A stretch of DNA of 64,000 nucleotides from Desmonostoc muscorum LEGE 12446 (GTDB taxonomy: Bacteria; Cyanobacteriota; Cyanobacteriia; Cyanobacteriales; Nostocaceae). The notes beneath the pieces are model-generated. The model was not told where the DNA came from. It made no database searches and saw only the letters and a program-made list of their open reading frames with translations. Both the position numbers and the translations under genes were made by a program. The stretch lies in the NCBI RefSeq assembly GCF_015207005.2, contig NZ_JADEXS020000001.1:8269001-8333000 (forward strand), in the 5' to 3' direction. Of this stretch, positions 42,282-64,000 are shown one piece after another; position 1 is the stretch's first letter, and each line of letters starts with the position of its first letter.

Positions 42282-42313
42282 TTGCATAACCTCCTAAAGC
42301 ATGAGAGATATAG
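42282..42313 (+). promoter_or_regulatory. Shared upstream element, copy A
   Basis: TTGCATAACCTCCTAAAGCA then TGAGAGATATAG. TTGCAT and GATATA are spaced by 19 bases, consistent with -35 and -10 boxes, with a CCTC...GAGA inverted arm between. The same arrangement occurs at 48071 and 48742. It lies about 48 bases before the TPR-CHAT start at 42361. Confidence 0.5.
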
Positions 42314-42360
42314 AGAATTAGCGAGTAATTTACTCTCACCCGCTTGAAGGACTGCTTCTC

Positions 42361-44853
42361 GTGCATTACCGTCTCAAATCCCTCTCTATTGCTACTTTAG
42401 TGCTTTGCCTGTCTTTACCTGTAGGCGTTGCTGAATCACAGATAAGGGGAAATGTGCAAACTACCCTAACTGCACAAGCGCAAACAACGCAAGAACACAG
42501 GGATGAAGCATTGCGGCTAAATGAATTAGGTCTTCAACAATTAAATAAAGGCCAGTTTCGAGAAGCGTTAAAGACTTTTGAGCAAGCTTTAGCGATTTTC
42601 CAACAAATTGGTGACACAGCAGGTGAAGGCACAATTCTCAACAATATTGGGGTACTTTACCGCAATCTGGGACAGTATGCTAAGGCTTTAGAGTTCTATC
42701 AGCAAGCTTTAGCAATCCGTAAACAAACTAGTAACACAGAAGGTGAAGGGAATACTCTCAACAATATTGGGGGAGTTTATTTCAGTTTGGGACAGTATGC
42801 CAAGGCTTTAGAGTTCTATCAGCAAGCTTTAGCGATCGCCAAACAAATTGGTAACACAGCAGGTGAAGGCGCAACTCTCAACAATATTGGGGTAGTTTAC
42901 AGCAATCTGGGACAGTATGCCAAGGCTTTAGAGTTCTATCAGCAAGCCTTAGCGATTCGCAAACAAATTGGTGACACAGCAGGTGAAGGGAATACTCTCA
43001 ACAATATTGGGCTAATTTACGACAATCTGGGACAGTATGCCAAGGCTTTAGAGTTCTATCAGCAAGCTTTAGCGATTCCCAAACAAATTGGTGACACAGC
43101 AGGTGAAGGGAATACTCTCAACAATATTGGGGGAGTTTATTTCAGTTTGGGACAGTATGCCAAGGCTTTAGAGTTCTATCAGCAAGCTTTAGCGATTGGC
43201 AAACAAATTGGTGACACAGCAGGTGAAGGCATAACTCTCAACAATATTGGGGCAGTTTACCGCAATCTGGGACAGTATGCCAAGGCTTTAGAGTTCTATC
43301 AGCAAGCTTTAGCGATCGCCAAACAAATTGGTAACACAGCAGGTGAAGGCGCAACTCTCAACAATATTGGGGTAGTTTACAGCAATCTGGGACAGTATGC
43401 CAAGGCTTTAGAGTTCTATCAGCAAGCCTTAGCGATTCGCAAACAAATTGGTGACACAGCAGGTGAAGGCAGAACTCTCAACAATATTGGGCTAATTTAC
43501 GACAATCTGGGACAGTATGCAGATGCAGAAAAAACCTTATTTGCTGCTATCGAGGTTTTGGAATCTCTGCGAACAAAAACATTATCGGACGACCAAAAAA
43601 TATCAATTTTTGAAATCCAACCTCAAACTTATCGGTTTCTAGAACGAGTCTTAATTGCTCAAAATAAAACTAACACAGCATTGGAAATATCTGAACGAGG
43701 TCGAGCTAGAGCCTTTATTGAGTTATTAGCCTCCAAGATATCTGGAAATATCGACAATCAACAAGCTATCAAACCACCTAATATTGAGCAAATTCAGCAA
43801 ACTGCTAAAGCACAAAATGCCACGCTTGTTGAATATTCAGTTAATGAATCAAATTTATATATCTGGGTGATAAAACCAACTGGCAAAATTGCCTTTAAAC
43901 AAGTAGACCTTAAATCATTAAAGACACCACTTGCACAACTAGTAAACAAAAGCCGTCTATCTATTGGTGCTGGGGGTCGGGGTATTAAGGTAGAACCCAA
44001 AAATGAATCTACTAAAAAACAAAACTTGCAGAAGTTATATGAGGTATTAATTGAACCGATCGCCTCTCTTCTCCCGACTAACCCAGATGAACACGTTATC
44101 TTCATCCCTCACGATTCGCTGTTTTTAGTTCCCTTCGTTGCACTGCAAGATAAAGATGGCAAATACCTGATTGAAAAACACACTATCTTAACTGCACCAG
44201 CTATTCAAGTTTTAGATTTGACACATCAGCAACGCCAAAAGGTGACAGGTAAAGATGTGTTAGTTATGGGCAATCCGACAATGCCAAAAGTTGGGATTCC
44301 ACCTGTGCAACTTGACCCTCTTTTGGGTGCAGAAAAGGAAGCATTAACTATTGCTAATTTATTCAAAATTAAAGCTATTACTGGTAAAGATGCAACAAAA
44401 GCGGCTTTCAAACAAAAGTTATCTTCTGCCAGGATTATTCATTTAGCAACGCATGGATTGTTGGATGATGCTGATAAGAGTATACCAAGTGCGATCGCTC
44501 TTGCACCCACTAGTAACGATGACGGTTTACTTACCCCTGCGGAAATTGTCGATTTAAAAATCAACGCAGAGTTAGTGGTGTTAAGCGCTTGCGACACTGG
44601 TAGAGGTGCAATTACTGGTGATGGTGTGGTTGGATTATCTCGTTCTTTGATTACGGCTGGCGCGTCTAGTGTGATTGTCTCTTTGTGGAAAGTTCCTGAT
44701 TCATCTACGTCAGAATTAATGACGGAATTTTATCAGCAATGGGAGAAAAATCCTGATAAGGCGGCGGCGTTACGCAATGCGATGCTGATTACTATGAAGA
44801 AGCATCCTCAGCCTGTTAATTGGGCGGCTTTTACGTTGATTGGTGAATCTTAG
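42361..44853 (+). CDS. Secreted TPR-CHAT protease
   Basis: The 830-residue protein starts at a GTG (42361), supported by a signal peptide (LKSLSIATLVLCLSLPVGVA) like that of its paralogue at 48802. Nine TPRs of 40 residues follow (about 40-400; consensus TLNNIGVVYSNLGQ, YAKALEFYQQALAI, KQIGDTAGEG), almost identical in DNA. A linker (KISIFEIQPQTYRFLERVLI, SERGRARAFIELLASK) leads to a CHAT caspase-like domain (about 540-830). The catalytic dyad is His698 (LATHGLLDD) and Cys744 (LSACDTG). CHAT domains are clan-CD cysteine peptidases that TPRs usually regulate by binding partners. Probably periplasmic or surface-exposed; substrate unknown. Confidence 0.9.
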   Translation: MHYRLKSLSIATLVLCLSLPVGVAESQIRGNVQTTLTAQAQTTQEHRDEALRLNELGLQQLNKGQFREALKTFEQALAIFQQIGDTAGEGTILNNIGVLYRNLGQYAKALEFYQQALAIRKQTSNTEGEGNTLNNIGGVYFSLGQYAKALEFYQQALAIAKQIGNTAGEGATLNNIGVVYSNLGQYAKALEFYQQALAIRKQIGDTAGEGNTLNNIGLIYDNLGQYAKALEFYQQALAIPKQIGDTAGEGNTLNNIGGVYFSLGQYAKALEFYQQALAIGKQIGDTAGEGITLNNIGAVYRNLGQYAKALEFYQQALAIAKQIGNTAGEGATLNNIGVVYSNLGQYAKALEFYQQALAIRKQIGDTAGEGRTLNNIGLIYDNLGQYADAEKTLFAAIEVLESLRTKTLSDDQKISIFEIQPQTYRFLERVLIAQNKTNTALEISERGRARAFIELLASKISGNIDNQQAIKPPNIEQIQQTAKAQNATLVEYSVNESNLYIWVIKPTGKIAFKQVDLKSLKTPLAQLVNKSRLSIGAGGRGIKVEPKNESTKKQNLQKLYEVLIEPIASLLPTNPDEHVIFIPHDSLFLVPFVALQDKDGKYLIEKHTILTAPAIQVLDLTHQQRQKVTGKDVLVMGNPTMPKVGIPPVQLDPLLGAEKEALTIANLFKIKAITGKDATKAAFKQKLSSARIIHLATHGLLDDADKSIPSAIALAPTSNDDGLLTPAEIVDLKINAELVVLSACDTGRGAITGDGVVGLSRSLITAGASSVIVSLWKVPDSSTSELMTEFYQQWEKNPDKAAALRNAMLITMKKHPQPVNWAAFTLIGES

Positions 44854-44931
44854 TTCACGCAGAGGCGCAGAGGGAAGGAAAAGAGTTTAGAGTGGATTTT
44901 GGTGGTGTCTATTGGCGATTAGTTTTTAATT

Positions 44932-47367
44932 ATGACTGGTTATAATTTTTATCTGAAAGTTCAACAGTTTGATAAATTTTGCTCATTTGAATTATCTTGG
45001 GGTGTGGGACAGAATATTGGTGTCACACTCGCATATCCTGAAAATATGACGGCGCTGTACCAAGAATGGCAGCGAATTTATCTCCGGTTTTATAATACTC
45101 AATTGCGAGGAAGGGTAGAAGAAATTGGTAGTTTTACTGCACCTAATGTTGATTGGCACGCGCATTTAGTACAGGCGGAAACACAACTTTTATATGAATT
45201 TCATCACTGGTTACGTAGTGCAGAATTATATGAAATTCGGGCAGCGATCGCCAAAGCTTCCAAAAACAGCGATAATCCCTATATTGATATTTTTATAACT
45301 TGCAATCCTCTAGAGTTAGCACGATTACCGTGGGAAGTCTGGGAAATTGGCACAGAATTTGCTCTTGATTCTAGTAAAATTCGGATTGTTCGCACACCGA
45401 TAAATAGGCGGAAAACAGTAAATAATAATGTTTATAATGCCCGTAAAGCTAAAATTTTAGTAATTTTAGGAGATAAAAGTGGTTTAGATTTTAAAACAGA
45501 AAAATCAGCTGTAAGTTCCCTAGAATCATTAGCTGAAATTACTTTTATTGGCTGGCAACCACACGAAAGCATTACTGAATTAAAAACTAAAATTGTTCAG
45601 GCGATCGCCTCACAGTCTGGTTGGGATATTTTATTCTTTGCAGGTCACAGTAATGAAACAAATTTGACTGGGGGAGAAATAGCGATCGCTCCCAATGTGG
45701 CTTTATTAATTAGTGAGATAGAACAAGCATTAATTACTGCTAAATCAAGAGGATTACAGTTTGCTATTTTTAATTCTTGCAAGGGTTTAAGTATTGCTAA
45801 TAAACTCATTGATTTAGGATTAAGTCAGGTTGCAGTTATGCGCGAACCAATTCACAATCGCGTTGCTGGAGAATTTTTTCTGCAATTTATCCAAGCTTTA
45901 GCTCAATATCAAGATGTCCATCAATCATTATTAGCAGCATCGAAATATCTGAAGTTAGAAAAGAATTTCACTTATCCGAGTGCTTACTTAATTCCCTCTT
46001 TGTTTCGCCATCCAGAAGCAGACTTATTTCGCCTCCAACCTTTTGGTATCAAGCAAGTTTTTCAGAGTTTGAAACCAAATCGTCAAGAAGCGATCGCACT
46101 TTTAGTTGTGTTAATAATTAGTTTACTACAGCCAGTGCAAAGTCTTTTATTACAAGGGCGTGTATTGGTACAGGCTTTCTATCGTCAAATTACCCGTCAA
46201 GTTGCAAATGTTGCAAGTCCGCCGCCAGTTCTCTTGGTGCAAATTGACGAAGAGTCCATTAGAAAAGCCAAAATATCGAATCCTAAGCCGATGAATCGTC
46301 AGTATTTGGCGAGTCTAGTTGATCGACTGACGGCTAATAACGCTAAGGTAATCGGTATTGATTATCTCTTGGATCGGCCTCAAGAGCAAGGCGATCGCAT
46401 TCTTGCCAAATCTATTCAAAGGGCTATATCTTCACCTAACCCGACATTGTTTGTGTTTTCTGCAACTTCTAATGATGACGCATGGCTGAGGGTACTACCT
46501 GAAATTGCTAGTCTTAATTGGAGTTTAGAAGGGGAAATTGACAATTATCCTTGGTATATGGAATTGTTACCCCATGATGATTTTCAATCACAGCCTTGGC
46601 ATTTTGCTAGCTTATTAGCTCTTGGGCATCAATTACAAGAAATTCCTAACGCGCCGCAGCCAAAAAAAGACAGTAAAATAGACTTTTTTCAAAAGATTAA
46701 TGATTTTTTAAAAGATAGTAATAAAGCTAATAAAACAATTTTAAAATCAGAGCGATCGCACCTGCAATTAGTTACAGCTTTGAGTTATTCAATCAAGCAA
46801 AGTTGGTTACACCCAATCATTGACTTTTCTATTCCCCCTCATCAGGTATATCATTCCATTCCTGCCTGGAAATTATTAGAAAATCGAGATATTCCTCAAA
46901 GCTTACAACAGCAAATTGTCATTATTGCACCGGGAGGATATCACGAAGCTGGGATTGTGAAAGATGGTGATGATACTTTTCAAGATTCACAGTCACCACC
47001 AGCTATCAAATACTGGCGAAATCAACAAAATCCCATTAACAAAAGCAAAGTGTTTACAGGCGGTGAATATCACGCTTACATAGTGCATCATTTCCTGACG
47101 CAGAGATTAGTTGTGCCAATTCCCGATTTATGGATGATTGGGATAGCAATATTGCTAGGCAAAACTATATATTTACTGCAACCAAGAAAGCAGTATTCTG
47201 CATTGCAATGGTTAATATTGCCCAGTATTATTACAGGGTTGTATGGACTGGTTAGCTTACAATTTTACATTTGGTCAGCTGCAATGCTATTACCTTGGTT
47301 TTTACCAACAGTAGCATTGTGGTATTACGTTTTACCTACTGTTTTCAAAAGGAAAAGTCATGAATAA
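44932..47367 (+). CDS. CHAT-like/CHASE2 membrane protein
   Basis: The 811-residue protein has an N-terminal region with a CHAT-like fold (about 90-370). CNPLELARLPWEVWE is followed by a candidate dyad of His239 (LFFAGHSNET) and Cys283 (AIFNSCKGLS). A membrane segment follows (about 386-408). Then comes a CHASE2 sensor domain (about 425-690: VLLVQIDEESIRKAKIS, NAKVIGIDYLLDRP, VIIAPGGY), and three C-terminal membrane helices (about 715-805). CHASE2 is an extracytoplasmic sensor. The layout suggests a cytoplasmic protease-like output coupled to an envelope signal (inference). It overlaps the DUF928-like gene by eight bases, so the two are co-translated. Confidence 0.85.
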   Translation: MTGYNFYLKVQQFDKFCSFELSWGVGQNIGVTLAYPENMTALYQEWQRIYLRFYNTQLRGRVEEIGSFTAPNVDWHAHLVQAETQLLYEFHHWLRSAELYEIRAAIAKASKNSDNPYIDIFITCNPLELARLPWEVWEIGTEFALDSSKIRIVRTPINRRKTVNNNVYNARKAKILVILGDKSGLDFKTEKSAVSSLESLAEITFIGWQPHESITELKTKIVQAIASQSGWDILFFAGHSNETNLTGGEIAIAPNVALLISEIEQALITAKSRGLQFAIFNSCKGLSIANKLIDLGLSQVAVMREPIHNRVAGEFFLQFIQALAQYQDVHQSLLAASKYLKLEKNFTYPSAYLIPSLFRHPEADLFRLQPFGIKQVFQSLKPNRQEAIALLVVLIISLLQPVQSLLLQGRVLVQAFYRQITRQVANVASPPPVLLVQIDEESIRKAKISNPKPMNRQYLASLVDRLTANNAKVIGIDYLLDRPQEQGDRILAKSIQRAISSPNPTLFVFSATSNDDAWLRVLPEIASLNWSLEGEIDNYPWYMELLPHDDFQSQPWHFASLLALGHQLQEIPNAPQPKKDSKIDFFQKINDFLKDSNKANKTILKSERSHLQLVTALSYSIKQSWLHPIIDFSIPPHQVYHSIPAWKLLENRDIPQSLQQQIVIIAPGGYHEAGIVKDGDDTFQDSQSPPAIKYWRNQQNPINKSKVFTGGEYHAYIVHHFLTQRLVVPIPDLWMIGIAILLGKTIYLLQPRKQYSALQWLILPSIITGLYGLVSLQFYIWSAAMLLPWFLPTVALWYYVLPTVFKRKSHE

Positions 47368-48028
47368 ACTTTTATTACATACTTTGGTGCTATCAACGAT
47401 CGCTTTGAGTAATGCACCTGTTCTATCTAATCAAGTGACACCTCCTAAAAAAAGTTCCATACAACAAACTTTTTCTTGGACAAATATTTCCCGAATTATT
47501 TTTAGTAAGAAACCTCCTGTAGAACCGCGTAAAGGTGGTTCTCGTCCTACTGATAATGTCTGCATGGTTTCTCCAGATGCACCCGATAAACTTAGAATTG
47601 TTTGGAGCGATCGCCCCTTATTTATTTGGAAAGGTCAAGCGCAAACAATAGCAGTGCGTTCAATCAATAGTGAGCAAGATTTATGGAATCAACCAGTAAC
47701 AGAAACTCAGAATATAACTTATGCAGGTAAACCATTGCAACCAGGTGAAACTTATAAATGGGTGGTCAATTCATCGAAGTTCGTCCCATTTCAAATCATG
47801 GAGACACAACAGCGCGATCGCATTACCGCAGAATTGAAGACTTTAGAAAATCAACTGCAAGCACAAGGAGCAGATATTGAGGCGATCGCCCTTGCTAAAG
47901 CCAAGTACTTTGCTGATTCTAACCTGTGGTCAGATGCCTTACAGCAAGCTTATTCTGTGCCATTACGCTCAGATGAATTGCAGAAGATGATCAAAAATAT
48001 CGATAACTTGTGTGACGTACCGAAATAA
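47360..48028 (+). CDS. DUF928-like secreted protein
   Basis: The 222-residue protein has a signal peptide (about 1-22, LLLHTLVLSTIALSNAPVL). A conserved-looking mature region follows: PRKGGSRPTDNVCMVSPD (about 56-73), LRIVWSDRPLFIWKGQ (about 78-93), LQPGETYKWVV, then an alpha-helical C-terminus (LENQLQAQGADIEAIALAKA, YFADSNLWSDALQQAY). This matches DUF928 proteins as I know them, which accompany CHASE2 genes in cyanobacteria. Its ATG overlaps the end of the CHASE2 gene. Role unknown; a periplasmic ligand or partner for CHASE2 is plausible. Confidence 0.75.
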   Translation: MNKLLLHTLVLSTIALSNAPVLSNQVTPPKKSSIQQTFSWTNISRIIFSKKPPVEPRKGGSRPTDNVCMVSPDAPDKLRIVWSDRPLFIWKGQAQTIAVRSINSEQDLWNQPVTETQNITYAGKPLQPGETYKWVVNSSKFVPFQIMETQQRDRITAELKTLENQLQAQGADIEAIALAKAKYFADSNLWSDALQQAYSVPLRSDELQKMIKNIDNLCDVPK

Positions 48029-48070
48029 AAGGGTAATAATTCGGCAACTCGTTAGCAAATAGCTCTGATT

Positions 48071-48100
48071 TTGCATAACCTCTGAACACTCAGAGATATA
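48071..48100 (+). promoter_or_regulatory. Shared upstream element, copy B
   Basis: TTGCATAACCTCTGAACACT then CAGAGATATA. TTGCAT and GATATA are 18 bases apart; CTCTGA and TCAGAG form an inverted repeat inside. It lies about 57 bases before the small TPR gene at 48157. Confidence 0.5.
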
Positions 48101-48156
48101 TACCTGTGAGCAGCAAGAAAACCTCTGCAATATTTAAGATTTTAGGAGATACAACA

Positions 48157-48663
48157 ATGAAAGGTTTGAAATTAGCAGCAGCAATTCTAGTATTTGGAAC
48201 ACTGACTTTTACACCCAAGGCTGAAGCTAAAAGCTTGTTCAGCACTCGACAAGTCATAGCACAAGTTCCCAACTCGCAAACTGAAAATCAGAATGATACC
48301 GAAACATACTTTAAACGGGGTTTTAAGCGGATAGAATCAAAAGATTATCGAGGAGCAATTGAAGATTTTAACCAAATCCTGAAGATTGAACCTAAAAATG
48401 CTTATGCCTACCTTGGTAGAGGATTAGGTAATTTTGGTTTGGATGAATATCAAGCAGCAAAGACAGATTTTGATCAAGCTTTGGAAATTACTCCCGATAT
48501 TCCCTATGCCTATTATTTCCGAGGTTTGACAAACTTTGCTTTAAAAGACAAACAAGGAGCGATCGCTGATTTACAGAAAGCATTCACACTGTTTAAACAA
48601 GAGGGGAATCAGGAATTCGCCCAAAAAGCCACCGATGCAATTGAGAAGATACAAGAGAGTTAA
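48157..48663 (+). CDS. Small secreted TPR protein
   Basis: From the ATG at 48157, preceded by TTAGGAGATACAAC, the protein is 168 residues. A GTG at 48106 would add 17 residues but lies next to the putative promoter. A signal peptide (LKLAAAILVFGTLTFTPKAE, cleavage near AEAKS) is followed by three TPRs of 34 residues (about 50-150: YFKRGFKRIESKDYRGAIED, AYAYLGRGLGNFGLDEYQAA, PYAYYFRGLTNFALKDKQGA). It has no CHAT domain. It sits between the CHASE2/DUF928 pair and a TPR-CHAT gene and shares their upstream element, so it is probably an adaptor of the same system. Confidence 0.85.
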   Translation: MKGLKLAAAILVFGTLTFTPKAEAKSLFSTRQVIAQVPNSQTENQNDTETYFKRGFKRIESKDYRGAIEDFNQILKIEPKNAYAYLGRGLGNFGLDEYQAAKTDFDQALEITPDIPYAYYFRGLTNFALKDKQGAIADLQKAFTLFKQEGNQEFAQKATDAIEKIQES

Positions 48664-48741
48664 ACCCCATTACATAATTGTGACAACCTATGCAGCAACC
48701 GGGTTTTGCAATTTTTTGTTCGTAAAATCCGGTTTTTATTG

Positions 48742-48769
48742 AAATATCCTCTGAAAACTTAGAGATATA
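48742..48769 (+). promoter_or_regulatory. Shared upstream element, copy C
   Basis: TGAAATATCCTCTGAAAACT then TAGAGATATA. TTGAAA and GATATA are 19 bases apart; CCTCT and AGAG form the inner inverted repeat. It lies about 33 bases before the TPR-CHAT start at 48802. Confidence 0.5.
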
Positions 48770-48801: not shown

Positions 48802-51800
48802 ATGCGCCACCGCCTGAAATACCTTACCGTTGCTACAGTCCTATTTCCCCTTGTTACCTTGTCACCTTGTCTCCCACTCTCCTCTCCCTTAGTGGTGCAG
48901 GCGCAAACGACACAACAGCCTAGTGCTGAAGCTTTGCAATTATTGCAAATTGGTATTCAACAATATAAGAATGGTACGTTACAAGAAGCATTACAAACAT
49001 TTCAAAAATTACTTCCCATTCTCAGAACAAATGGCAACGGAAAGATAGAAGCAATGACTCTTAACGTTATTGGGAGAATTTACGTAAATTTAGGACAGTA
49101 TCCCCAAGCTTTGACAGCTTGTCAGCAAGCTTTAACTTTGGCTAAACAAATTGGAGAAAAGGCAGAAGAAGGTGCTTCTCTTAATAATATTGGCAATATT
49201 TATAATAGTTGGGGACAATCTGCCAAAGCTTTAGAGTTTTATCAGCAAGCCTTAACCATTAGCAAACAAATCGATGACAAACTATTTGAAGGGCTAAGTT
49301 TGAACAATATTGGCACAGTTTACTCCAGTTGGGGAGAGTATGCCAAAGCCTTGGAATTTTATCAGCAAGCTTTAGTCATTTACAAACAAGTTGGCAACAA
49401 AATGGAGGAAGCAACAACCTTCAATAATATTGGCAAGATTTATAATGGTTTGGGAGAGTATGCCAAAGCTTTGGAAGCTTATCAGCAAGCTTTAGCTATT
49501 GTTAAGCAAGCCAGTAACAAAGTAGGGGAAGCTTCAACCCTTAACAATATTGGATTGACTTACAATAGCCAGGGAAATTACACCAAAGCCTTGGAATTGC
49601 ATCAGCAAGCTTTAGCTATTCTCCAACAACTTGCCAATAAACAGGAAGAAGCAACAACTCTCAACGCTATTGGATTGGCTTACAACAAACAAGGGCAATA
49701 TGTAAAAGCCTTGGAATTACATCAGCAGGCTTTAAGTATTTTCAAACAAATCGGTAACAAATGGGGAGAAGCAGCAACTCTCAATAATATTGGAGATGTT
49801 TACCGTAATTTGGGAGAGTATACCAAAGCTTTAGGATTGTTTCAGCAAGCTTCAGCTATTTTCAAACAAATTGCTGATCAAGCGGGTGAAGGAACAACTC
49901 TCAACAACATTGCCTTTGTTTACAATAATCAAGGACAGTACGCCAAAGCTTTGGCAGCTTATCAGCAAGCTTTAGCTATTCGCAAACAAATCAATCAAAA
50001 AGCGTTGGTAGGAGAAAGCCTCAATAATATTGGCTCTGTTTACGACAATTTGGGGCAGTACGATCAAGCATTGAAGTTTTATCAGCAAGCTTTAGCTATT
50101 CTCCAACAAATTGGTAGCAAAGCAGGTGAAGGTAAAACTTTGAACAACATTGCCTTTATTTATAACAATTCTGAACAGTATGATAAAGCATTGAAGTTTT
50201 ATCAGGAATCTTTAACTATTCTCCAACAAATTGGTGACAAAGCAGGCGAAGGCAAAACTCTCCATAATATTGGAGAAGTTTATCAAAGGCAAAGACAATA
50301 TACAAAAGCCTTGAACATCTATCAGCAAGCTTTAACTATTTTTAAACAAATCGGCGATCAAGCGGGTGAAAGCATAACTCTTAATAATATTGGTGGGGTT
50401 TATTACAACCAGGGAGAGTATGCCAAAGCTTTGGAATTCCATCAGGAAGCTTTAGTAATTGTCAAACAAGTCGGTGATAAAGCGGCAGAAGGAACATATC
50501 TTAATAATATTGGTTCAGCTTACGATAACTTAGGACAATATGAAAATGCTGAAAAAACGCTATTTACTGCAATTGAGATTTGGGAGGATTTGCGAAAGAA
50601 TGGATTAACTGATGCTCAGAAAATTTCCATCTTTGAAAAACAAGCCGAAACCTACCGCTTTCTGCAAAAAGCGTTAATTGCCCAGAATAAAATTAATTCT
50701 GCACTAGAAGTGAGCGATCGCGCTAAAGCCAGAGCCTTTATTGAGTTATTAGCATCAAAGCAATTAGAGAAACCAAATACTCAATTAAATACCCAACCTC
50801 TGACACTCCCACAAATCCAAAACATTGCCAAAGTGCAAAACGCAACCCTCGTACAATATTCAACTATAGGGGACGAAGCACTTGACATTTGGGTAATCAA
50901 ACCTACAGGTAAAATTGCCTTTGAGAAAGTTGACTTGAAAAAATCTCTAGATACTTCTCTGGAAGAATTGGTGACTGTTAGCCGTCAATCTATAGGTGCA
51001 AGAACTAGAGGTATCAAAGTCGAGCCTACAGGTGGGGGTAATCAAAGCAAACGGTTACAAAAACTCTATGAAATACTGATTAAACCTATCGCATCATATC
51101 TTCCCACAGATCCTAATGCCCGTGTGATCTTCATCCCCCAAAACTCACTGTTTCTCGTTCCCTTCCCCGCACTACAAGATGAAGAAGGCAAATACTTAAT
51201 CGAAAAACATACTATTCTGACTGCGCCTGCAATTCAAGTTTTGGAGTTTACCCGCCAGCAAAGAGTAGGGAATAGGGAATTGGGAGTGGGGAGTAGGGAA
51301 GTTTTAGTGGTTGGTAATCCTACCACAGCTAAGATTCCCATCACCAACGAAAATTTAATACCTCTTGCTGGTGCAGAATTTGAAGCAGTTCAGATTGCAG
51401 ATTTGTTCAAAACGCAAGCGATTATAGGTAGCAAAGCCACAGAAACAGCAATTGTCCAGAAAATGAGCAAAGCCAGGATTATCCATTTTGCTACTCATGG
51501 CTTACTTGATGATTTTAAAGGATTTGGGGTACCAGGTGCGATCGCTCTTGCTCCTTCGCCTAAAGACGACGGTTTCCTAACATCAGGCGAAATTTTGGAC
51601 ATGAAACTCAACGCCGAACTCGTGGTTCTCAGTGCTTGCAATACCGGAGGTGGGAATATTACAGGCGATGGTGTCATTGGCTTATCGCGTTCTTTGATTA
51701 CAGCCGGAGTTCCTAGCGTCATCGTATCTCTATGGTCTGTAGATGATAAATCCACCGCCTCATTGATGAGTGAATTTTATCGCAACCTCCAGCAAAATCC

Positions 51801-51903
51801 TGATAAAGCTGTCGCGCTAAGACAAGCAATGCTGACAACAAAAAAACTATATTCCAATCCTCTCGATTGGGCTGCATTTACTCTCATAGGCGAATCTGAT
51901 TAA
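48802..51903 (+). CDS. Secreted TPR-CHAT protease, 14 TPRs
   Basis: The 1033-residue protein has a signal peptide (about 1-37) and about 14 TPRs of 40 residues (about 45-590). These are more divergent from each other than those at 42361. A linker (KISIFEKQAETYRFLQKALI, SDRAKARAFIELLASK) leads to a CHAT domain. The catalytic dyad is His899 (FATHGLLDD) and Cys946 (LSACNTG). Oddity: between the first CHAT strands a heptamer repeat array is inserted in frame, giving VGNRELGVGSRE at about residues 821-832. Paralogues have only KVTGKD there. Probably periplasmic or surface-exposed, regulated by TPR-bound partner. Confidence 0.9.
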   Translation: MRHRLKYLTVATVLFPLVTLSPCLPLSSPLVVQAQTTQQPSAEALQLLQIGIQQYKNGTLQEALQTFQKLLPILRTNGNGKIEAMTLNVIGRIYVNLGQYPQALTACQQALTLAKQIGEKAEEGASLNNIGNIYNSWGQSAKALEFYQQALTISKQIDDKLFEGLSLNNIGTVYSSWGEYAKALEFYQQALVIYKQVGNKMEEATTFNNIGKIYNGLGEYAKALEAYQQALAIVKQASNKVGEASTLNNIGLTYNSQGNYTKALELHQQALAILQQLANKQEEATTLNAIGLAYNKQGQYVKALELHQQALSIFKQIGNKWGEAATLNNIGDVYRNLGEYTKALGLFQQASAIFKQIADQAGEGTTLNNIAFVYNNQGQYAKALAAYQQALAIRKQINQKALVGESLNNIGSVYDNLGQYDQALKFYQQALAILQQIGSKAGEGKTLNNIAFIYNNSEQYDKALKFYQESLTILQQIGDKAGEGKTLHNIGEVYQRQRQYTKALNIYQQALTIFKQIGDQAGESITLNNIGGVYYNQGEYAKALEFHQEALVIVKQVGDKAAEGTYLNNIGSAYDNLGQYENAEKTLFTAIEIWEDLRKNGLTDAQKISIFEKQAETYRFLQKALIAQNKINSALEVSDRAKARAFIELLASKQLEKPNTQLNTQPLTLPQIQNIAKVQNATLVQYSTIGDEALDIWVIKPTGKIAFEKVDLKKSLDTSLEELVTVSRQSIGARTRGIKVEPTGGGNQSKRLQKLYEILIKPIASYLPTDPNARVIFIPQNSLFLVPFPALQDEEGKYLIEKHTILTAPAIQVLEFTRQQRVGNRELGVGSREVLVVGNPTTAKIPITNENLIPLAGAEFEAVQIADLFKTQAIIGSKATETAIVQKMSKARIIHFATHGLLDDFKGFGVPGAIALAPSPKDDGFLTSGEILDMKLNAELVVLSACNTGGGNITGDGVIGLSRSLITAGVPSVIVSLWSVDDKSTASLMSEFYRNLQQNPDKAVALRQAMLTTKKLYSNPLDWAAFTLIGESD
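51264..51300. repeat. STRR heptamers in frame inside a CHAT domain
   Basis: About five 7-mers (TAGGGAA, TTGGGAG, TGGGGAG, TAGGGAA) are embedded in the coding sequence. They are the same type as the intergenic STRR arrays and keep the frame. Confidence 0.8.
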
Positions 51904-51967: not shown

Positions 51968-52003
51968 CCTCTGCGCCTCTGCGTGATAAATTCCTTCAAT
52001 AAT

Positions 52004-53443: not shown

Positions 53444-54587
53444 AATTCATCGCCAGCTCTACTTCAAGTATCTACTACCGTGTCTGAAATCGAAATTATC
53501 AAAGCTTTTGCAGGTCTAGAAGACCCCCGTCGCCGCGCCGGACAGCGACATACTCTACCATTATGTCTTGCGCTGTTCACATTGGCGATCGCCGCAGGCA
53601 ATAAAGGATTTCTAGCAATTGGAGATTGGATTTCAAGCTACCGTGAGGAGTTGATAGACCTCTTGAAACCGACAAAGAATAGGCTTCCTTCTTACAGTAC
53701 AGTCCGTCGTAATTTATTACACATAAATTACGAAGAGTATTCCGTATGCCTTGCGAATTTCTTTGACATCAAACCACTGCCTGGAGAAACTGTTGGTATG
53801 GATGGTAAAGTCCTCAAAGGCTCATATCAAGTAGAAAATGATAATCCACATTCTGATTCCCACCCAGCAATTATGTTGGTCAGTGCTTACCTTGTAGAGC
53901 GAGGATTGATTTTAGAACCGTTTGAAGTTGATGCCAAAACCAACGAAATAAAAGCATTACCTGAGTTGATTGAGAAACTGGCTCTCAGGGGAGTAGTTTT
54001 TGCCTTTGATGCTATTAATACACAAAAAAAACTTGTGAGTTGATTATCAACAGTGGCAATGATTATATTGCTGCCTTGAAAGGGAATCAACCTAGTTTAT
54101 TCAAAGATATCAAAACTAATTTTACACCGGAATTTTCTTTTGAGCAGATAAATAAAGGTCATGGTCGAATCGAAAAGCGACATGTCAGTATTTGTCAAAA
54201 TCTTGATGGTATTCGTCCTTGGCCTGGACTTACCACTTTGATTCAAGTCAAATCAGAACGTCAGGTTTTCACACACAATGTAATTGAAGTAACTACTGAG
54301 ACTCGTTATTACATTTCATCTCTAACTGAAACGGCTCAACAAATAGCTGAACGAATCAGAGGATATTGGGGTGTTGAGAATAAAGTTCATTACGTTCGGG
54401 ACGTTACCCAAGGTGAAGATGCATCCCGAATTCGCACTACACCCTTACCTCAGATTTTTGCGCTCACTCGCAATTTTTCACTCAATTTATACCGAAACAA
54501 TATGTTTAAAAATATGGCACAAGCTCAACGTTTATGTTCTTTTGGACTAGACACACTCAAGCAGCTTTTTAGAATGAAATAGCCCTG
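53405..54587 (+). mobile_element. ISAs1-family insertion sequence, copy 1
   Basis: The 1183-bp element has perfect 17-bp inverted ends (CAGGGCTATTTCATTCT / AGAATGAAATAGCCCTG). It is flanked by a 9-bp target duplication ATTGGTTTG (53396-53404 and 54588-54596). It inserted in the last codons of the CHAT-like gene. It appears identical to copy 2 at 57522. Confidence 0.95.
53480..54582 (+). CDS. ISAs1-family transposase, two frames joined by -1 slippage (copy 1)
   Basis: Frame 1 (53480-54043, GTG start) ends AINTQKKLVS; frame 2 resumes from ELIINSGNDYIAALKGNQPS to 54582. The junction is CACAAAAAAAACTTG: an A8 run allowing A-AAA-AAA slippage, which would give NTQKKTCELIINSGND, the sequence expected for this family. 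Transposase features are ITLGMDGKVLKGS-like VGMDGKVLKGS (about 109-119, first Asp), FAFDAINTQKK (second Asp), and GYWGVENKVHYVRDVTQGED (Glu region). The full fusion is about 367 residues. The alternative is a decayed gene, but an identical A8 junction in both copies argues for recoding or a recent common source. Confidence 0.85.
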
Positions 54588-54614: not shown

Positions 54615-57560
54615 GTGAGAAAATTTATGATCTACCGTTGGCAAAATTTCACTCTTCTATCTTTGGTATTTTACCTAACATTTCCTTTAGCTACATTTGA
54701 GTTTAAGCTAATGGGGATATCACAGGTATTAGCGCAGAATCCAAATCCCCGAAAAGCTGAAGCAGATAAGCTACTTCAACAAGGTAATGAACTCGATGAA
54801 AATAATCAACCCCAAGCTGCTTTAAAAGCTTTTGAGAAAGCTTTATCTATATATCGTGAAATTCACGATCAACAGGGAGAAGGTAAAACACTTAATTATA
54901 TTGGCAATATTTACAATGATAATTTTGAGGAATATAGCCAAGCCATTAGTTATTATCAAAAAGCTTTAGAAATTGCTCAAAAAATTAACGATCGCACTTT
55001 AGAGTCGAAAGTTTTAAATAATTTAGGGCTGGTTCAATTACATTTAAAAAATTCTCGGCGTGCAGTTGAATACTGCGAACAAGCATTAGCAGTAGCGCGA
55101 GAAAATAAGAACTATGAAACAGAAGCGATCGCCCTCAAAAGTCTAGGGGCAATCTATATTGTTTCTGATACTTCAAAAGGACTTGATTTTCTAGAACAAT
55201 CTTTAATTGTTCTAGAAAAAGCTAATGGTACTGCTGAAGATAAACTCCGTCAAAATAAACTTAAAGCGAGTATTATTATTAATCTGGGTAATTTTTATTA
55301 CTCTCTTGGTGGAGCTAAAAGAATGAATAGCGACCCAGCAGCAAAGAAATTATTAAATAAGTCTCTTGAATATTATCAACAGGGTCTAAAAATTGCTCAA
55401 GAAATAGGCGATCGCCCCAGACAAGGAAAAGCTCTCTTGGGCATGGGAGACCTATACCATCTCAATAGTCAGTATACTCAATCAACAGAAGGTATTCAGC
55501 AAGCATCTGCCAAAGCTATAGAAAGTTTTGAACAAGCATTAAAGATTTTTGCAACAGATAAAAATTTTCGTTCTCAAGCACGATTAGCCTACAGTAAATT
55601 AGGTGATGTTTACTACAGATGGGGTAACAAAAAGAAGGCATTGGATGCCTATAAGCAAGCTTTACAAATTATCGAAACAGAAGTCCCTACTTCTCCCTTC
55701 AATAAGCTCGAACAGGATGTACAACGAGGATGGCTATTAATCAATTTTGGTAATATTAATGCTGATGCTAGTAAGTATGAACAAGCATTAGATTCATACA
55801 AAAAAGCATTAAAAATCTTGGAATTAGCCCTTCAAGAATCCCAGCAAATTAGTACCCCTGCTAAACAGTTTATAACAGAATCAATCAAAGTTGGAATGAA
55901 ACAAACATATCTGCGTTTGTGTTTAGTATACAAACTTATTGGACAACCGGAAGCTAGTAAAAAAGCTTGTCAGGATAGTAAGTCTATTGAACTAAATTAT
56001 CCTTTACCCAAAAGTTTATCAAACAAAGGAACAGTTTTAAATAAAGCTGCTAAATCTCCGGCAGATTTAGAAAAAGCAAAAAAAGAATTACAAGAAGCGT
56101 TAGAGAGTTTGCGACAGTCCCAAGCCTTAGGAACTCCAGATTTTATCGCTTTCCACTTGGCTCAAGTTGGTGCTGCTTATACTCAATTGGGAGAATATAA
56201 GCTGGCTCAGGAATATTTTCAAAAAGCTATAGAAATCATTACACCAATTGATAGCCCTCAATTTAAACCATACATATTTTTTGTAGTTGGCGAGTTTTAC
56301 GACTGGCAAAAACAATATGATTTAGCTTTTCAATATTATCAAAAAGCTGGAGAATTTGCTAATCAAGCTGACGAAAAATTAATAGAAGCAAATGTTTTTA
56401 AACAGTTTGGTATAACTGGCTTTCTTGCTAATCGCCTACCTGAAGCCACAACTGCTTTATATAGAGCAATAGATGTTTTTGATGCCATTCGAATGGATTT
56501 ATTAGATGATAAGTATAAAATCTCTATCTTTGAAATCCAGGCTAATACTTATAGTTTGTTGCAAAAAACTTTAATTAGTCAGGATAAATTTTCAGAGGCT
56601 TTAGAAGTTGCTGAACGTGGTCGAGCTAGAGCTTTTATTAATCTACTAGCCTTACGAGTTAGCAGCAAAAATCAGAGTAAATTAAACTTAAAAATTCCGA
56701 ATGTGTTGCCACCAAAAATTGCAGATATTCAGAGAATTGCTAAAGAACAAAACGCCACAATTGTAGAATATGCTGTTCCTAAACCTCCTAGATATAATGA
56801 TGCAAATAACAATGACAAGCTAGTATGGGATAATTCAGAACTCTACATTTGGGTAATTCAACCAACTGGTGAAATAGAGTTCAAACCAGTAGATTTCAAA
56901 TCATTAAATGCATCTTTAGCAGACTTTGTGGGAGAAAGTCGCCTCTCTATTGGTGCTGGAAGAGGGGGTGGGATAAATGTAGATCCAACAGATAAACCGG
57001 TACGAAAACGCAATTTACAGAAATTACATGAGGTATTAATTGAACCTATTGCCTCTCTTCTCCCCACTAATCCAGAAGCAAAGGTAATTTTTATTCCTCA
57101 TGATTCGCTGTTTTTAGTACCGTTCGCAGCACTGCAAGATAAAGATAAAAAATACTTAATTGAAAAACACACTATCCTCACTGCACCAGCTATTCAAATT
57201 CTAGATTTGACTCGTCAACAACGTCAAAAGGTTACGGGTAAAGATGTGTTAGTTATGGGTAATCCTATTATGCCCAAAGTGGGAAATCCATCTGTACAAC
57301 TTGACCCACTTAAAGGTGCAGAAATCGAAGCATTAACTATTGCTAATTTATTTAAAACTAAAGCCATTACTGGTAAGGATGCGACAAAAGCAGCTTTCAA
57401 ACAAAAATTATCAACTGCTAGGATTATTCATTTAGCCACGCATGGATTATTAGATGATCCTAGTCAAAATATCAAAGCTGCTATAGCCCTTGCACCTACT
57501 AATAATGATGATGGTTTACTCCAGGGCTATTTCATTCTAAATGTAGACGCAATATGGTAG
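54615..57560 (+). pseudogene. TPR-CHAT protease gene, 5' part (split by ISAs1)
   Basis: The frame from the GTG at 54615 encodes a signal-like N-terminus (about 1-41), a divergent TPR region (about 45-640) with an extended helical linker, and the first part of a CHAT domain. It reaches His943 (LATHGLLDD) and stops in the IS (codons after 969 are element-derived). The missing part, with the catalytic Cys, is at 58715-59035. Removing the IS and one target copy restores DDGLLTPAEIVDLR and a 1075-residue protein. Copy 1 of the same IS ends only 28 bases upstream of the start, so the original promoter or an operon link to the preceding gene may be disrupted. Confidence 0.9.
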
Positions 57561-58704
57561 AATTCATCGCCAGCTCTACTTCAAGTATCTACTACCGTGT
57601 CTGAAATCGAAATTATCAAAGCTTTTGCAGGTCTAGAAGACCCCCGTCGCCGCGCCGGACAGCGACATACTCTACCATTATGTCTTGCGCTGTTCACATT
57701 GGCGATCGCCGCAGGCAATAAAGGATTTCTAGCAATTGGAGATTGGATTTCAAGCTACCGTGAGGAGTTGATAGACCTCTTGAAACCGACAAAGAATAGG
57801 CTTCCTTCTTACAGTACAGTCCGTCGTAATTTATTACACATAAATTACGAAGAGTATTCCGTATGCCTTGCGAATTTCTTTGACATCAAACCACTGCCTG
57901 GAGAAACTGTTGGTATGGATGGTAAAGTCCTCAAAGGCTCATATCAAGTAGAAAATGATAATCCACATTCTGATTCCCACCCAGCAATTATGTTGGTCAG
58001 TGCTTACCTTGTAGAGCGAGGATTGATTTTAGAACCGTTTGAAGTTGATGCCAAAACCAACGAAATAAAAGCATTACCTGAGTTGATTGAGAAACTGGCT
58101 CTCAGGGGAGTAGTTTTTGCCTTTGATGCTATTAATACACAAAAAAAACTTGTGAGTTGATTATCAACAGTGGCAATGATTATATTGCTGCCTTGAAAGG
58201 GAATCAACCTAGTTTATTCAAAGATATCAAAACTAATTTTACACCGGAATTTTCTTTTGAGCAGATAAATAAAGGTCATGGTCGAATCGAAAAGCGACAT
58301 GTCAGTATTTGTCAAAATCTTGATGGTATTCGTCCTTGGCCTGGACTTACCACTTTGATTCAAGTCAAATCAGAACGTCAGGTTTTCACACACAATGTAA
58401 TTGAAGTAACTACTGAGACTCGTTATTACATTTCATCTCTAACTGAAACGGCTCAACAAATAGCTGAACGAATCAGAGGATATTGGGGTGTTGAGAATAA
58501 AGTTCATTACGTTCGGGACGTTACCCAAGGTGAAGATGCATCCCGAATTCGCACTACACCCTTACCTCAGATTTTTGCGCTCACTCGCAATTTTTCACTC
58601 AATTTATACCGAAACAATATGTTTAAAAATATGGCACAAGCTCAACGTTTATGTTCTTTTGGACTAGACACACTCAAGCAGCTTTTTAGAATGAAATAGC
58701 CCTG
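57522..58704 (+). mobile_element. ISAs1-family insertion sequence, copy 2
   Basis: The 1183-bp element has the same 17-bp inverted ends as copy 1 and is flanked by a 10-bp target duplication TGGTTTACTC (57512-57521 and 58705-58714). It interrupts the CHAT domain of the 54615 gene between the catalytic His and Cys. Both targets contain TGGTTT. Confidence 0.95.
57597..58699 (+). CDS. ISAs1-family transposase, two frames joined by -1 slippage (copy 2)
   Basis: Identical in both frames to copy 1: frame 1 from the GTG at 57597 to 58160, frame 2 to 58699, with the same A8 junction near 58139-58147. The exact identity over the whole element indicates very recent transposition or gene conversion. 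The source of the active element cannot be told from this window. Confidence 0.85.
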
Positions 58705-58714
58705 TGGTTTACTC

Positions 58715-59035
58715 ACTCCTGCGGAAATTGTGGATTTACGCTTCAATGCGGAACTTGTAGTTTTGAGTGCTTGCGACACGGGTATAGGAACAATTACTGG
58801 TGATGGAGTAATTGGATTATCTCGTGCTTTGATTACTGCTGGTGCGCCGAGTGTAATTGTCTCATTGTGGAAAGTTCCTGATTCACCAACATCGGAATTA
58901 ATGACAGAGTTTTATCGACAGTGGGAGAAAAATCCCGATAAGGCGGTGGCGTTGAGAAATGCCATGCTGCTTGCGATGAAGAAGTATCCACAACCAAGAG
59001 ATTGGGCAGCCTTTACGTTAATTGGTGAGTCTTAG
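58715..59035 (+). pseudogene. TPR-CHAT protease gene, 3' part
   Basis: The frame continues the split CHAT domain with TPAEIVDLRFNAELVVLSAC, DTGIGTITGDGVIGLSR, SVIVSLWKVPDSPTSELMTE, ending FTLIGES. It holds the catalytic Cys (Cys989 in the restored protein, 46 residues after the His, the same spacing as in the 42361 protein). It has no own start for secretion, so alone it should be inactive. Confidence 0.9.
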
Positions 59036-59057
59036 TTACAGGTGAAGTGAGTAAATT

Positions 59058-62000: not shown

Positions 62001-64000
62001 TATGGAGCTAATTTTACTCCTGATGGAAATAGGATTGTTACTGTATCTACGAATAAGATACCGCAATTATGGAATATATCAGGCAAACTGCTAGCAGAAT
62101 TTAGAGAAGGTACTGAATTTGAGATTAGCAGTGCTGTTTTTAGTCCCGATGGAAAACTGATTGTTACTGCATCTCGTGACAAAATTGCCCGTATGTGGGA
62201 TCTATCTGGTAAGCTAATTGCTGAACTAAAATGGTATCAAGGTAACATTAACGAAAGCATTTTTTTCCCAGACATAAATAATGCCATTTTTAGTCCAGAT
62301 GGAAAACTAATTGTTACCACCACATCTAGCGACAATATCGCTCGTATATGGGACACCAAAGGTAATTTGCTGTTGGAATTGGTAGGTCACGAGTTAGGTA
62401 TTAACAGCGCGAGTTTTAGCCCAGATGGAAAGTTCATTGTCACTGCATCGAAGGACAAAACTGCTCGTGTGTGGGATAAGTTTGCCAGACAGATAGCAGA
62501 ACTCAAAGGGCATCAAGGCGAAGTTGAAAGTGCTTATTTTAGCTTAGATGGAAAGTTGATTGTTACAGCATCCGTTTTTGACAATACACGCTTATGGGAT
62601 ATCTCTGGCAAGTTATTAGCCGAATTGAAAGAAGGGGATCGCAGCTTTATTCGTACTTCTAGTGCCAGTACTAATTTTAGCCCAGATGGAAAACTGATTG
62701 TTGAAGTATCAGAAGGGTTGACTCCTCGTATTTGGAGTATATCTGGCAAACTACTGGTAGAACTTAAAGGTCATAAAGATATTATCAGCAGTGCAAATTT
62801 CAGTCCTGATGGAAAATTGATTGTCACTGCATCCAAAGACCAGACTGCCCGTTTGTGGAATTTGTCTGGCAAACTACTGGCAGAACTTAAAGGTCATACT
62901 AACTCGGTATTGAGTGCTAATTTTAGTCCGGATGGCAAACTAATTGTTACTGTATCAGCTGACAAAACTGCTCGTGTGTGGGATATAACTGGAAAACTGC
63001 TAGTAGAACTTAAAGGGCATCAAGATTACGTTAATAGTGCTAGTTTCAGCCCAGATAGTAAGCAGATTGTTACCGCATCGGATGACGGAACCTCTCGCGT
63101 GTGGAACACCTCTGGTAAACAGCTAGCGATTCTAAGTCTAGCTTCTCCTCCGTCTTCCCCCAAAGTGGAAGCAGACAGACTACGCGATCTCGAATTCTAC
63201 GCCCCCAACTGCGCCCAAGCACTCGACCCTTGGCAAAAAGCTCTAAAAATCTATCAAGAAATTTCCGACAACGAAAACCAAGCTGTCATCCTTGAACAAC
63301 TCGGTAAAGCTCATTATTGCCTCAGCGACTACACCAAAGCCATCGAATCCTACAAGAATGCTTTAGAAATTGCCACAAAATTCAACTATTCCCAAAGACA
63401 AGTCAATAACCTCGCCAATCTCGGAAATGTTTACAATTCCTTAGCTGACTATGAAACAGCAACTAAGTATTACAATGATGCTTTAAAAATTCTAGAGCAG
63501 TACCAAGACACACAACTCAAAGCAGAAGTTTTACAAAGTCGCGGCAATATTTACATCGCTCAAGGTAAATATAACGAAGCAATTCAAGACTTATTGCAAG
63601 CATTAGCTATTGACAACAACGCCTCTAGCATTGCTAAAACTAAAGTTAATTTGGCAAGTGTCTACTATTCTTTAGGCGACTACAACAAAGCCATTCAATA
63701 TTACAAAGAAGCTTTGGAATTGACTCCCAGTGAAGCACTCGGAGGCTTAGGTAATGTTTATCTTGCACTTGGCGATACGGCAAAGGCAATTGAGTTTCAT
63801 TCTTCAAGTTTAGCAAAAGCACAACAGAATGAAGATAAAGAAGCTGAAGGTAATGCTTTAAACAATCTTGCTAATTATCTTCGCCAAGCAGGTAAATTTG
63901 CTGAAGCTGAAAAATATTTGCGTTCGGCGATCGCTATTTGGGAAAACCTCCGGATTCAATTAGACGATGCCAACAAAATATCTATCTTTGAAAAGCAAAC
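59058..64000 (+). CDS. Giant WD40-TPR protein, 3' end beyond window (CHAT expected)
   Basis: An uninterrupted frame from the ATG at 59058 to the right edge gives about 1647 residues, still open. A signal-like segment (about 15-55, IILIALSAFLITITPT) is followed by about 31 WD40 repeats of about 41 residues (consensus HxxxVNSASFSPDGKLIVTA, SDDKTARIWDISGKLLAEL; about 70-1370). Then come about six TPRs (about 1400-1620), ending LDDANKISIFEKQ. That sequence is the linker that precedes CHAT domains in the paralogues, so a CHAT domain probably follows. A dispersed repeat encodes residues 5-11 of the chosen N-terminus. It may sense a partner through the WD40 array and pass it to a protease (inference). 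Confidence 0.9.
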   Translation, partial: MRDVYDGLRLRTSRIILIALSAFLITITPTWPQNFSGFFFAPQVLAQTPNQQQTETVTGSFIDYFAEERQFKGHEGSVNSASFSPDGKLIVTAGADNTARIWDFTGKQVAELVGHQGNVKSANFSPDGKLIVTASFDGTARVWDVSGKQLVELKGHQGNVYSANFSPDSKQIVTVSADKTVRIWDISGKQLTQITGHENIVNCAKFSPDSKRIITASADKTARVWNLSGRLLTELKGHTDTVWSASFSPDGKQIVTASDDKTARIWDVSGKQLAVLQGHQNSVLSASFSQNNQQIVTASVDYTALIWESSGKLVGKLQGHEGSVNSADWSQDGKWIVTASVDGTTWMWNAAEKLLTELRSFNITREISSISFSPDGKQILIGSGDNSVLLWDISSQQVRLFNKNGKGAKYAHFSPDGKFIVTSDMGYFQVWDKTGKLLTEVKDNENLIQGAYFSPDGQCIITSSQNDIFFIWNISGKLLTKIKGFGADLSPDGKKIITFSGKTAYVWDISGKQIAELKGHQKDIEYASFSPDGQHIITASFNGAKVYVWNSSGSLLTVLQSITSASFSPDGKLIASSGETSTGTTYGLWDLSGKLVAELEGFTLTYPGLKSHFSPDGKLILTQGWDQKTLFIHNISGKLLAEIKAPHGNISSIDFSPDGQKIITTSDDKSVRIWYLNSKYFNKQTFAEIPSAETIEPQGQVEHPYAFISVSSDGKRIITPSDKNTARVWDISGKLVAELKGNQNYVTQASFSSDGQHIVTRSDDDTILWDSSGKLLAVLDRYSNTASFSPNSKQIVIDAKIYDISGKLLTELKGHQDRVYDANFSHDGKLIVTASEDATARIWNLSGKLLAELKGHKDRVITAKFSPNGKLVATSSYDKTVRIWDIYGKLLTEIPGNQDAIFSPLFKFSPDGKQIIIASGNTAWIRDISGKLLAELQKHPTSISEVNFSPNGNLIVTTSEFNSVYVWDTSGNLLAEIEGGFYGANFTPDGNRIVTVSTNKIPQLWNISGKLLAEFREGTEFEISSAVFSPDGKLIVTASRDKIARMWDLSGKLIAELKWYQGNINESIFFPDINNAIFSPDGKLIVTTTSSDNIARIWDTKGNLLLELVGHELGINSASFSPDGKFIVTASKDKTARVWDKFARQIAELKGHQGEVESAYFSLDGKLIVTASVFDNTRLWDISGKLLAELKEGDRSFIRTSSASTNFSPDGKLIVEVSEGLTPRIWSISGKLLVELKGHKDIISSANFSPDGKLIVTASKDQTARLWNLSGKLLAELKGHTNSVLSANFSPDGKLIVTVSADKTARVWDITGKLLVELKGHQDYVNSASFSPDSKQIVTASDDGTSRVWNTSGKQLAILSLASPPSSPKVEADRLRDLEFYAPNCAQALDPWQKALKIYQEISDNENQAVILEQLGKAHYCLSDYTKAIESYKNALEIATKFNYSQRQVNNLANLGNVYNSLADYETATKYYNDALKILEQYQDTQLKAEVLQSRGNIYIAQGKYNEAIQDLLQALAIDNNASSIAKTKVNLASVYYSLGDYNKAIQYYKEALELTPSEALGGLGNVYLALGDTAKAIEFHSSSLAKAQQNEDKEAEGNALNNLANYLRQAGKFAEAEKYLRSAIAIWENLRIQLDDANKISIFEKQ

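Follow-up and report, generated by a model that had tools for sequence, protein, structure and literature searches.

The stretch analysed here, referred to as the window, comprises 64,000 nucleotides from the cyanobacterium Desmonostoc muscorum LEGE 12446 (G000:C1:8269001-8333000, within the 9.64-Mb genome G000). It holds most of a gene cluster of nine CHAT genes, a subtilase gene and a caspase (C14) gene in about 40 kb. We found that the cluster is headed by genes for a divergent sigma-70-like factor (Y) and a DUF1822 protein (Z), that it contains a putative receptor-protease (B) followed by a DUF928-type protein (C), that these four gene families recur together in other cyanobacteria, and that six cluster genes carry a common promoter-like motif. 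The features are the following, numbered from the first letter of the window.

34825..34856, plus strand, weak look-alike of the promoter-like motif before Y; under the scan threshold, kept in loci L063 and L064 and partly in L100
34904..36286, plus strand, Y, divergent sigma-70-like factor of 460 amino acids, first gene of the conserved module
36289..37635, Z, DUF1822 protein, directly after Y
38087..42060, insertion between Z and A, with two minus-strand open reading frames (ORFs), a MazE-like ORF and an NF041680-family transposase
42280..42312, plus strand, promoter-like motif before A
42361..44853, plus strand, A, TPR-CHAT protein (CHAT E = 5e-70) with a hydrophobic N-terminal segment and the catalytic His and Cys kept
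44932..47367, plus strand, B, putative receptor-protease of the order CHAT, transmembrane (TM), CHASE2, TM (N-terminal CHAT E = 2e-9, then CHASE2 E = 9e-20)
47360..48028, plus strand, C, DUF928-type protein with a hydrophobic N-terminal segment; 8-nt overlap with B
48069..48100, plus strand, promoter-like motif before D
48106..48663, plus strand, D, small TPR protein; likely start 48154, N-terminus resembling a signal peptide
48738..48769, plus strand, promoter-like motif before E (variant)
48802..51903, plus strand, E, TPR-CHAT protein (CHAT E = 6e-69) with a hydrophobic N-terminal segment and the catalytic His and Cys kept
51983..53443, plus strand, F, TPR-less pseudo-CHAT protein (CHAT E = 8e-65); catalytic dyad lost, final codons supplied by an insertion element
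53405..54587, plus strand, ISAs1-family element copy 1, transposase frame in two ORFs
54615..59035, plus strand, G, TPR-CHAT gene interrupted by ISAs1 copy 2; halves 54615-57560 (CHAT E = 2e-30) and 58730-59035 (1e-34)
57522..58704, ISAs1-family element copy 2, inside G, transposase frame in two ORFs
59058..65303 (window ends at 64000), plus strand, H, WD40-TPR-CHAT protein of 2081 amino acids without internal stops

The first-pass annotation of this DNA had described a CHAT gene cluster starting at A. The cluster is real and larger than that: PF12770, which had to exceed the Pfam cut-off for a CHAT call, did so in A, B, E, F and both halves of G, and the two overlooked leading genes Y (34904) and Z (36289) form the left edge. 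The right edge lies at ~81 kb, beyond the window. The genes to the right of the window encode an S8 subtilase (S8), three further TPR-CHATs (J, K and L) and a C14 caspase with DUF4384 (C14); an opposite-strand ORF among the right-hand genes is presumably Uma2-like. The annotation's expectation that the WD40-TPR gene H leads to a CHAT domain was borne out by extending the sequence rightwards, where the C-terminal CHAT (E = 3e-73) lies just past the window end at G000:C1:8333461-8334297. The TPR-CHAT gene that it took to be split by an insertion sequence is G, interrupted by the element at 57522-58704; both ISAs1-family copies are identical, 1183 bp long, and bear terminal inverted repeats and direct target repeats (9 and 10 bp). 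The insertion at 38087..42060 separates Z from A in the window, whereas the Z-A gap in the relative G015 (L063) is ~0.3 kb.

In an alignment, the catalytic His and Cys are present in the CHATs of A, B, E, H, J, K and L. A simple hydropathy scan, with J, K, L, S8 and C14 outside its scope, called a hydrophobic N-terminal segment in A, C, E, F and H and none in Y and Z; D and G stayed under the threshold, yet their N-termini resemble signal peptides. An envelope or extracellular role, as had been suggested, fits the several TPR-CHATs with export signals but leaves aside the cytoplasmic half of the cluster, that is, the sigma factor, the DUF1822 protein and the probably cytoplasmic CHAT domain of the receptor.

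Gene order was compared among the best 80 of at least 557 confirmed matches to a 24-protein alignment of B-type (CHAT-CHASE2) proteins, all cyanobacterial by title, with neighbour families assigned by one profile per gene family. These loci are not independent genomes: several share one genome (four come from Calothrix brevissima NIES-22, for example), and L099 and L102, which duplicate the G032 and G005 copies, are inside both the gene-order counts and the 80-locus matrix counts given below. DUF1822 is the next gene upstream of B in 56 of the 75 loci having at least 1.5 kb upstream and lies at most three genes upstream in 60 of these testable loci, 14 having no DUF1822 on that strand. Sigma-like and DUF1822 genes both stand upstream of B in 48 of the 67 loci having at least 3.5 kb. 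Downstream, a DUF928-type gene comes next in 61 of 75 loci (13 are without it), and the commonest junction is an 8-nt overlap, as in the window. The conserved neighbourhood in related genomes, for which the annotation had asked as a check, is thus present around B. In some loci, the window included, a TPR-CHAT gene stands between the DUF1822 and CHAT-CHASE2 genes. Across 59 genomes (~414 Mb by adding the listed sizes), which also served for the genome-wide motif counts, B-like and DUF1822 copy numbers are correlated (Spearman 0.915, or 0.893 after correction for genome size). Of the 9 main-contig DUF1822 genes of G000, 8 have a CHAT gene no more than 10 kb away, against a random mean of 0.76, and none of 20,000 random sets equalled this number.

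In B, His239 and Cys283 are invariant among the 24 aligned CHAT-CHASE2 proteins, whose identity to the window protein goes down to 18%. The CHAT domain precedes the first membrane segment (residues 388-406); therefore, it should be cytoplasmic. About 110 residues lie ahead of it, at the place of the EACC2 domain in EACC2-caspase proteins. A profile of the B proteins found nothing in the PDB at E <= 0.1.

Y itself has no Pfam match. Relatives at the same position exceed the Sigma70_r4 cut-off (L075, E = 9e-8; L090, E = 9e-7), and Sigma70_r2 appears in them only below its cut-off (L090, E = 5e-4). The AlphaFold model of Y has a predicted local distance difference test score (pLDDT) of 86.7 and a predicted template modelling score (pTM) of 0.59, and all 50 of the 50 fold matches listed are chains of RNA-polymerase or sigma-factor entries. 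Against the PDB, a Y profile gave weak matches to helix-turn-helix proteins (best E = 3e-4), one of which is SigF (E = 0.0095). Judged by the predicted fold and the sequence of regions 2 and 4, Y belongs to the sigma-70 family. The short Y3 proteins are termed sigma-like from position, size and look, none having passed a cut-off, and profile comparison between the long (Y) and short families gives weak local similarity (P = 0.002-0.004). A short sigma-like protein is also fused to a CHAT domain (E = 6e-10) in a 424-amino-acid protein of G000 (L182:5217-6491), whose gene has a 4-nt overlap with a DUF1822 gene, followed by a subtilase gene; a fusion of 95% identity is present in G008 (G008:C139:8636-9907), and these two are the only full-length matches in the 59 genomes. 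An apparent Y-Z fusion in L112 was rejected as a joining artefact, since the contig has a coverage of 2.8 by title and Y contains frameshifts.

The predicted model of Z has a nuclease-like and an immunoglobulin (Ig)-like fold. No anti-sigma factor appears by title among the fold matches listed for the DUF1822 model, which does not prove the absence of one. A DUF1822 profile matched only major histocompatibility complex class I chains in the PDB, over ~40 residues, and these were dismissed as chance.

The annotation's assignment of C to a DUF928-like family stands. The window protein is itself a weak match to PF06051, its 18.6 bits (E = 0.0017) falling short of the cut-off of 26, but a profile seeded with C recovers seven G000 genes also matched by PF06051 (E = 1e-16 to 1e-32). 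In G000, DUF928 genes adjoin other CHASE2 proteins, namely two adenylate/guanylate cyclases, one TIR protein and one without a further Pfam domain, and a CHASE2-AAA protein has a DUF928 gene ~6 kb away; of the 13 listed DUF928 genes of this genome, 9 have a CHASE2 domain no more than 3 kb away (0.15 on average at random). This association with CHASE2 proteins of varied cytoplasmic parts suggests that DUF928 partners CHASE2 outside the cytoplasm. At L178:8883-12128 of the same genome, a CHASE2 protein with three TIR stretches adjoins a DUF928 gene and a TPR-CHAT gene, and it is possibly a membrane TIR receptor of like design.

In addition to the gene order, we observed the motif TTTTGCATAWCCTY-N10-GARATAYA upstream of A, D, E, S8, J and C14, six genes that represent four kinds, with an N11 spacer at A and a variant site at E. 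The sites stand 23-53 nt ahead of the start codons, D being counted from its likely start (relative to the listed start, its site is 5 nt away). GCATAW and the -10-like hexamer are 16-17 nt apart, a gap that, on sequence grounds, matches sigma-70-type promoter spacing. The core pattern has five sites in the whole of G000, all in the cluster, and its reversed control has none. A slightly wider pattern has 27 sites in the 59 genomes, with one for the reversed pattern. Contigs bearing CHAT-CHASE2 orthologs (in G000, G005, G015, G024 and G032) carry 26 of the 27, all within 32 kb of the ortholog; 24 are no farther than 20 kb away, and the other two, before J and C14 in G000, are at ~21 and ~31 kb; the remaining site (G039) is away from any such contig. 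Because the motif was defined from five G000 sites, the other genomes were also counted separately, and 21 of their 22 sites lie within 20 kb of a B ortholog.

A matrix built from the six sites gave 43 matches scoring at least 20 in the 80 loci and none in either the reversed or the Markov control; 40 of them, in 15 loci, are followed within 300 nt by the start of a gene on the same strand. A second shuffle on 79 loci, with L099 omitted here and in the iterated counts, gave 38 matches versus one in the control. When the matrix was iterated for three rounds on the same loci, with drift and circularity possible, the share of genes with a site was 26 of 49 for sigma, 24 of 37 for the small-TPR class, 21 of 58 for CHAT and 6 of 9 for S8, against 2 of 18 for haemagglutinin-type, 2 of 11 for C14 and 19 of 392 for unlabelled genes; among the mostly operon-internal genes, it was 4 of 61 for DUF1822, 6 of 83 for B and 2 of 67 for DUF928. 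Across gene families, sites agree at more positions within a locus than between loci (16.9 versus 14.5 of 22; 0 of 300 permutations). This likeness would be the expected product of a locus-specific reader, and it could in part also stem from common descent of entire loci. In the 19 scanned G000 loci of other modules, the six-site matrix gave no match of at least 20 and the iterated matrix gave two at 17-20 (L088 and L179), so that no second motif dialect was seen there.

Two further observations concern the surroundings of these sites. A single small TPR gene is preceded by three motif copies at L102:13470-13663, with a constant spacing of exactly 81 nt. Large exoproteins, which we take to be of the filamentous haemagglutinin type, recur beside the module in L115, L139, L155, L161, L162 and L169, and a motif-like site precedes the exoprotein gene in L115, L162 (weak) and L169.

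F had been described as a dead CHAT. The catalytic pair is indeed lost, as F contains HLATC and LSASD compared to HLATH or HFATH and LSAC in the other complete CHATs of the cluster; mere decay, however, does not describe it, because the loss is a family trait. The pair is C/S in F and, as a set, Q/C, Q/C, N/C and N/G in its counterparts in L063, L095, L098 and L102 (L068 duplicates the L102 locus), with none intact. The catalytic His and Cys are kept in 78 of 101 aligned CHAT stretches, and 16 are gapped at one or both of these positions (fragments or short second stretches); the ungapped stretches lacking the dyad are six of the F group, with L068 and L102 entered separately, plus a Y/V stretch (L094). 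The ratio of non-synonymous to synonymous divergence (dN/dS) is 0.20-0.23 for F (window, G015 and Rhizonema) and 0.17-0.27 for B, rough values with dS above 1 in some pairs. Judging from these sequences, F is a conserved pseudoprotease under purifying selection, more than simple decay, and, being retained by selection, it therefore probably binds without cutting. Between the window and G015, dS is 1.30 for F versus 0.21-0.34 for Y, Z, B, C and D, and this high silent divergence suggests an exchange of accessory CHAT genes between lineages.

The following comparisons refer to the accessible portions of the papers cited. In EACC2-caspase systems (Kaur et al. 2021, PMC8195603), a caspase-like domain stands behind an N-terminal domain, CHASE2 is among the C-terminal domains, with membrane segments in some members, and a sigma factor and DUF1822 occur in the majority of neighbourhoods without TRADD-N; autopeptidase activation and a transcriptional step were proposed. 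The cluster is alike in that B has PF12770 and PF05226 above cut-off and adjoins a sigma factor and DUF1822. Thus, the association of sigma factor and DUF1822 with such proteins is already published, and the annotation's view of an undescribed system holds only in part. In contrast to that account, the cluster adds DUF928, the motif with its putative regulon, the exported TPR-CHAT, subtilase and caspase set, and the pseudo-CHAT, and DUF1822, a TPR protein there, has a nuclease-like and Ig-like model here. The literature searched, with subscription papers outside it, contains in its accessible portions no report of the promoter motif, the constant DUF928 link or the pseudoprotease; together with the DUF1822 fold, these appear to be new. 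A survey of WD40 proteins mentions, for one cyanobacterium, a cluster that includes CHASE2 and DUF928 genes (PMC5587647), and a term search of the main text of a cyanobacterial sigma-factor survey (PMC11119718) gave no DUF1822, CHAT or caspase.

In the type III-E Craspase, the TPR-CHAT protease Csx29 cleaves Csx30 and lifts the inhibition of CASP-sigma (PMC10028731). Both there and here the gene for a CHAT protease is linked to those for a sigma factor and a further protein, which in Craspase is the cleaved sigma inhibitor; unlike Craspase, the cluster shows no Cas7-11 or crRNA (CRISPR RNA), and its proposed trigger is a membrane receptor. The window contains a CRISPR array at 28049-29308 (18 repeats of Rfam CRISPR-DR5), and no cas gene was found among the searched ORFs flanking the cluster and the array. 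In agreement with the annotation, neither cas nor gasdermin families are present among the neighbouring ORFs run through Pfam. The Csx29 model scored 35.8 bits on A, against a cut-off of 300, and with no cas gene among the searched neighbours, membership in type III-E Craspase was dropped. The CalpL-CalpT-CalpS system (PMC11417357) likewise consists of a protease, an anti-sigma factor and an extracytoplasmic function (ECF) sigma factor, but uses a Lon protease and a cyclic oligoadenylate trigger in place of CHAT and CHASE2. HetF, which is needed for heterocyst formation, is also a CHAT protein of filamentous cyanobacteria (PMC8406250), with the order CHAT-TM-TPR, whereas the cluster has CHAT-TM-CHASE2 and TPR-CHAT; B shares the N-terminal CHAT but has CHASE2 and no TPR, the TPR-CHATs carry CHAT C-terminally, and identity with HetF therefore fails. 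A Trichodesmium protein (PMC3501461) resembles B in having an N-terminal caspase-like domain, proposed to be cytoplasmic, one membrane helix, CHASE2 and three helices; its protease domain is a metacaspase, and it is a single sequence whose operon is not mentioned in the text available.

We hold with moderate confidence that the cluster is an extracytoplasmic-signal-to-transcription module, in which a receptor-protease acts on a sigma factor with its own regulon. This model builds on the observed gene order, catalytic residues, sigma-like fold and common motif. The core genes would be Y, Z, B and C, with C probably exported and the partner of the sensor. A surface signal may reach CHASE2, the periplasmic sensor of B, perhaps via DUF928, upon which the cytoplasmic CHAT domain, with its invariant catalytic pair, would turn active. 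By analogy with Csx29-Csx30-CASP-sigma, the CHAT domain would cleave or remodel DUF1822, which would hold the sigma factor, and the released Y would read the motif and transcribe the genes bearing it. The regulon would consist of TPR-CHATs, small TPR proteins, the subtilase and the caspase, a mostly exported protease set, in which F may serve as a decoy or inhibitor. A more specific version, drawn by analogy, treats the module as a Craspase counterpart that is chromosomal and works through a membrane receptor: a CHAT on an extracytoplasmic sensor would cut DUF1822 and free a dedicated sigma factor, private promoters would drive the exported TPR-CHATs and the pseudoprotease, and each paralogous module would have its own sigma factor and promoter dialect. 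We put this forward tentatively, as a serious possibility that falls short of an even chance.

An immune or programmed-death system, as for EACC2-caspases, in which the receptor-protease self-activates and kills or arrests the cell with the sigma factor as one of several outputs, seems unlikely to us. Kaur et al. 2021 (PMC8195603) class such proteins among counter-invader systems in the portion available, and the CHASE2 protein with TIR domains in G000 adjoins DUF928 and TPR-CHAT genes. PADLOC, however, run on ten cluster proteins with the flanks outside the search, returned TPR, caspase and subtilase models and weak C3a156, PDC-S39, IetS and PglX matches but no defence system, and the motif-bearing genes encode mostly exported proteins rather than obvious cytoplasmic killers. 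We give somewhat less credence still to the idea that an unlinked transcription factor uses the motif as its operator, with the housekeeping sigma factor transcribing the cluster and Y regulating something else. Regulator sites are also possible near start codons, and the Y gene of the window lacks a strong motif; against this, the two blocks, their 16-17 nt gap and their distance from the starts fit a -35/-10 core promoter, and about half of the Y genes do carry the motif, whose sites co-vary by locus. Tandem duplication of abundant TPR-CHAT genes without a functional link to the CHASE2 operon is very improbable and already disfavoured: the genome has 53 CHAT matches, and the DUF928-to-subtilase stretch holds two CHAT genes in G015 versus four in the window, but the motif is common to unlike genes (small TPR, subtilase, caspase) of four kinds with differing spacers, so that recent duplication fails to explain it, and the same neighbours recur in many species.

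Large cyanobacterial genomes can carry dozens of CHAT proteins. For the proposed receptor-protease/sigma factor module, the private promoter and the linked sigma factor provide a handle to switch on the protease set and to read out its regulon. If the proposed cleavage is true, sigma release by a CHAT protease would be a more general signalling logic rather than a peculiarity of CRISPR systems, and caspase-like proteases would serve cyanobacteria as receptors connected to transcription.

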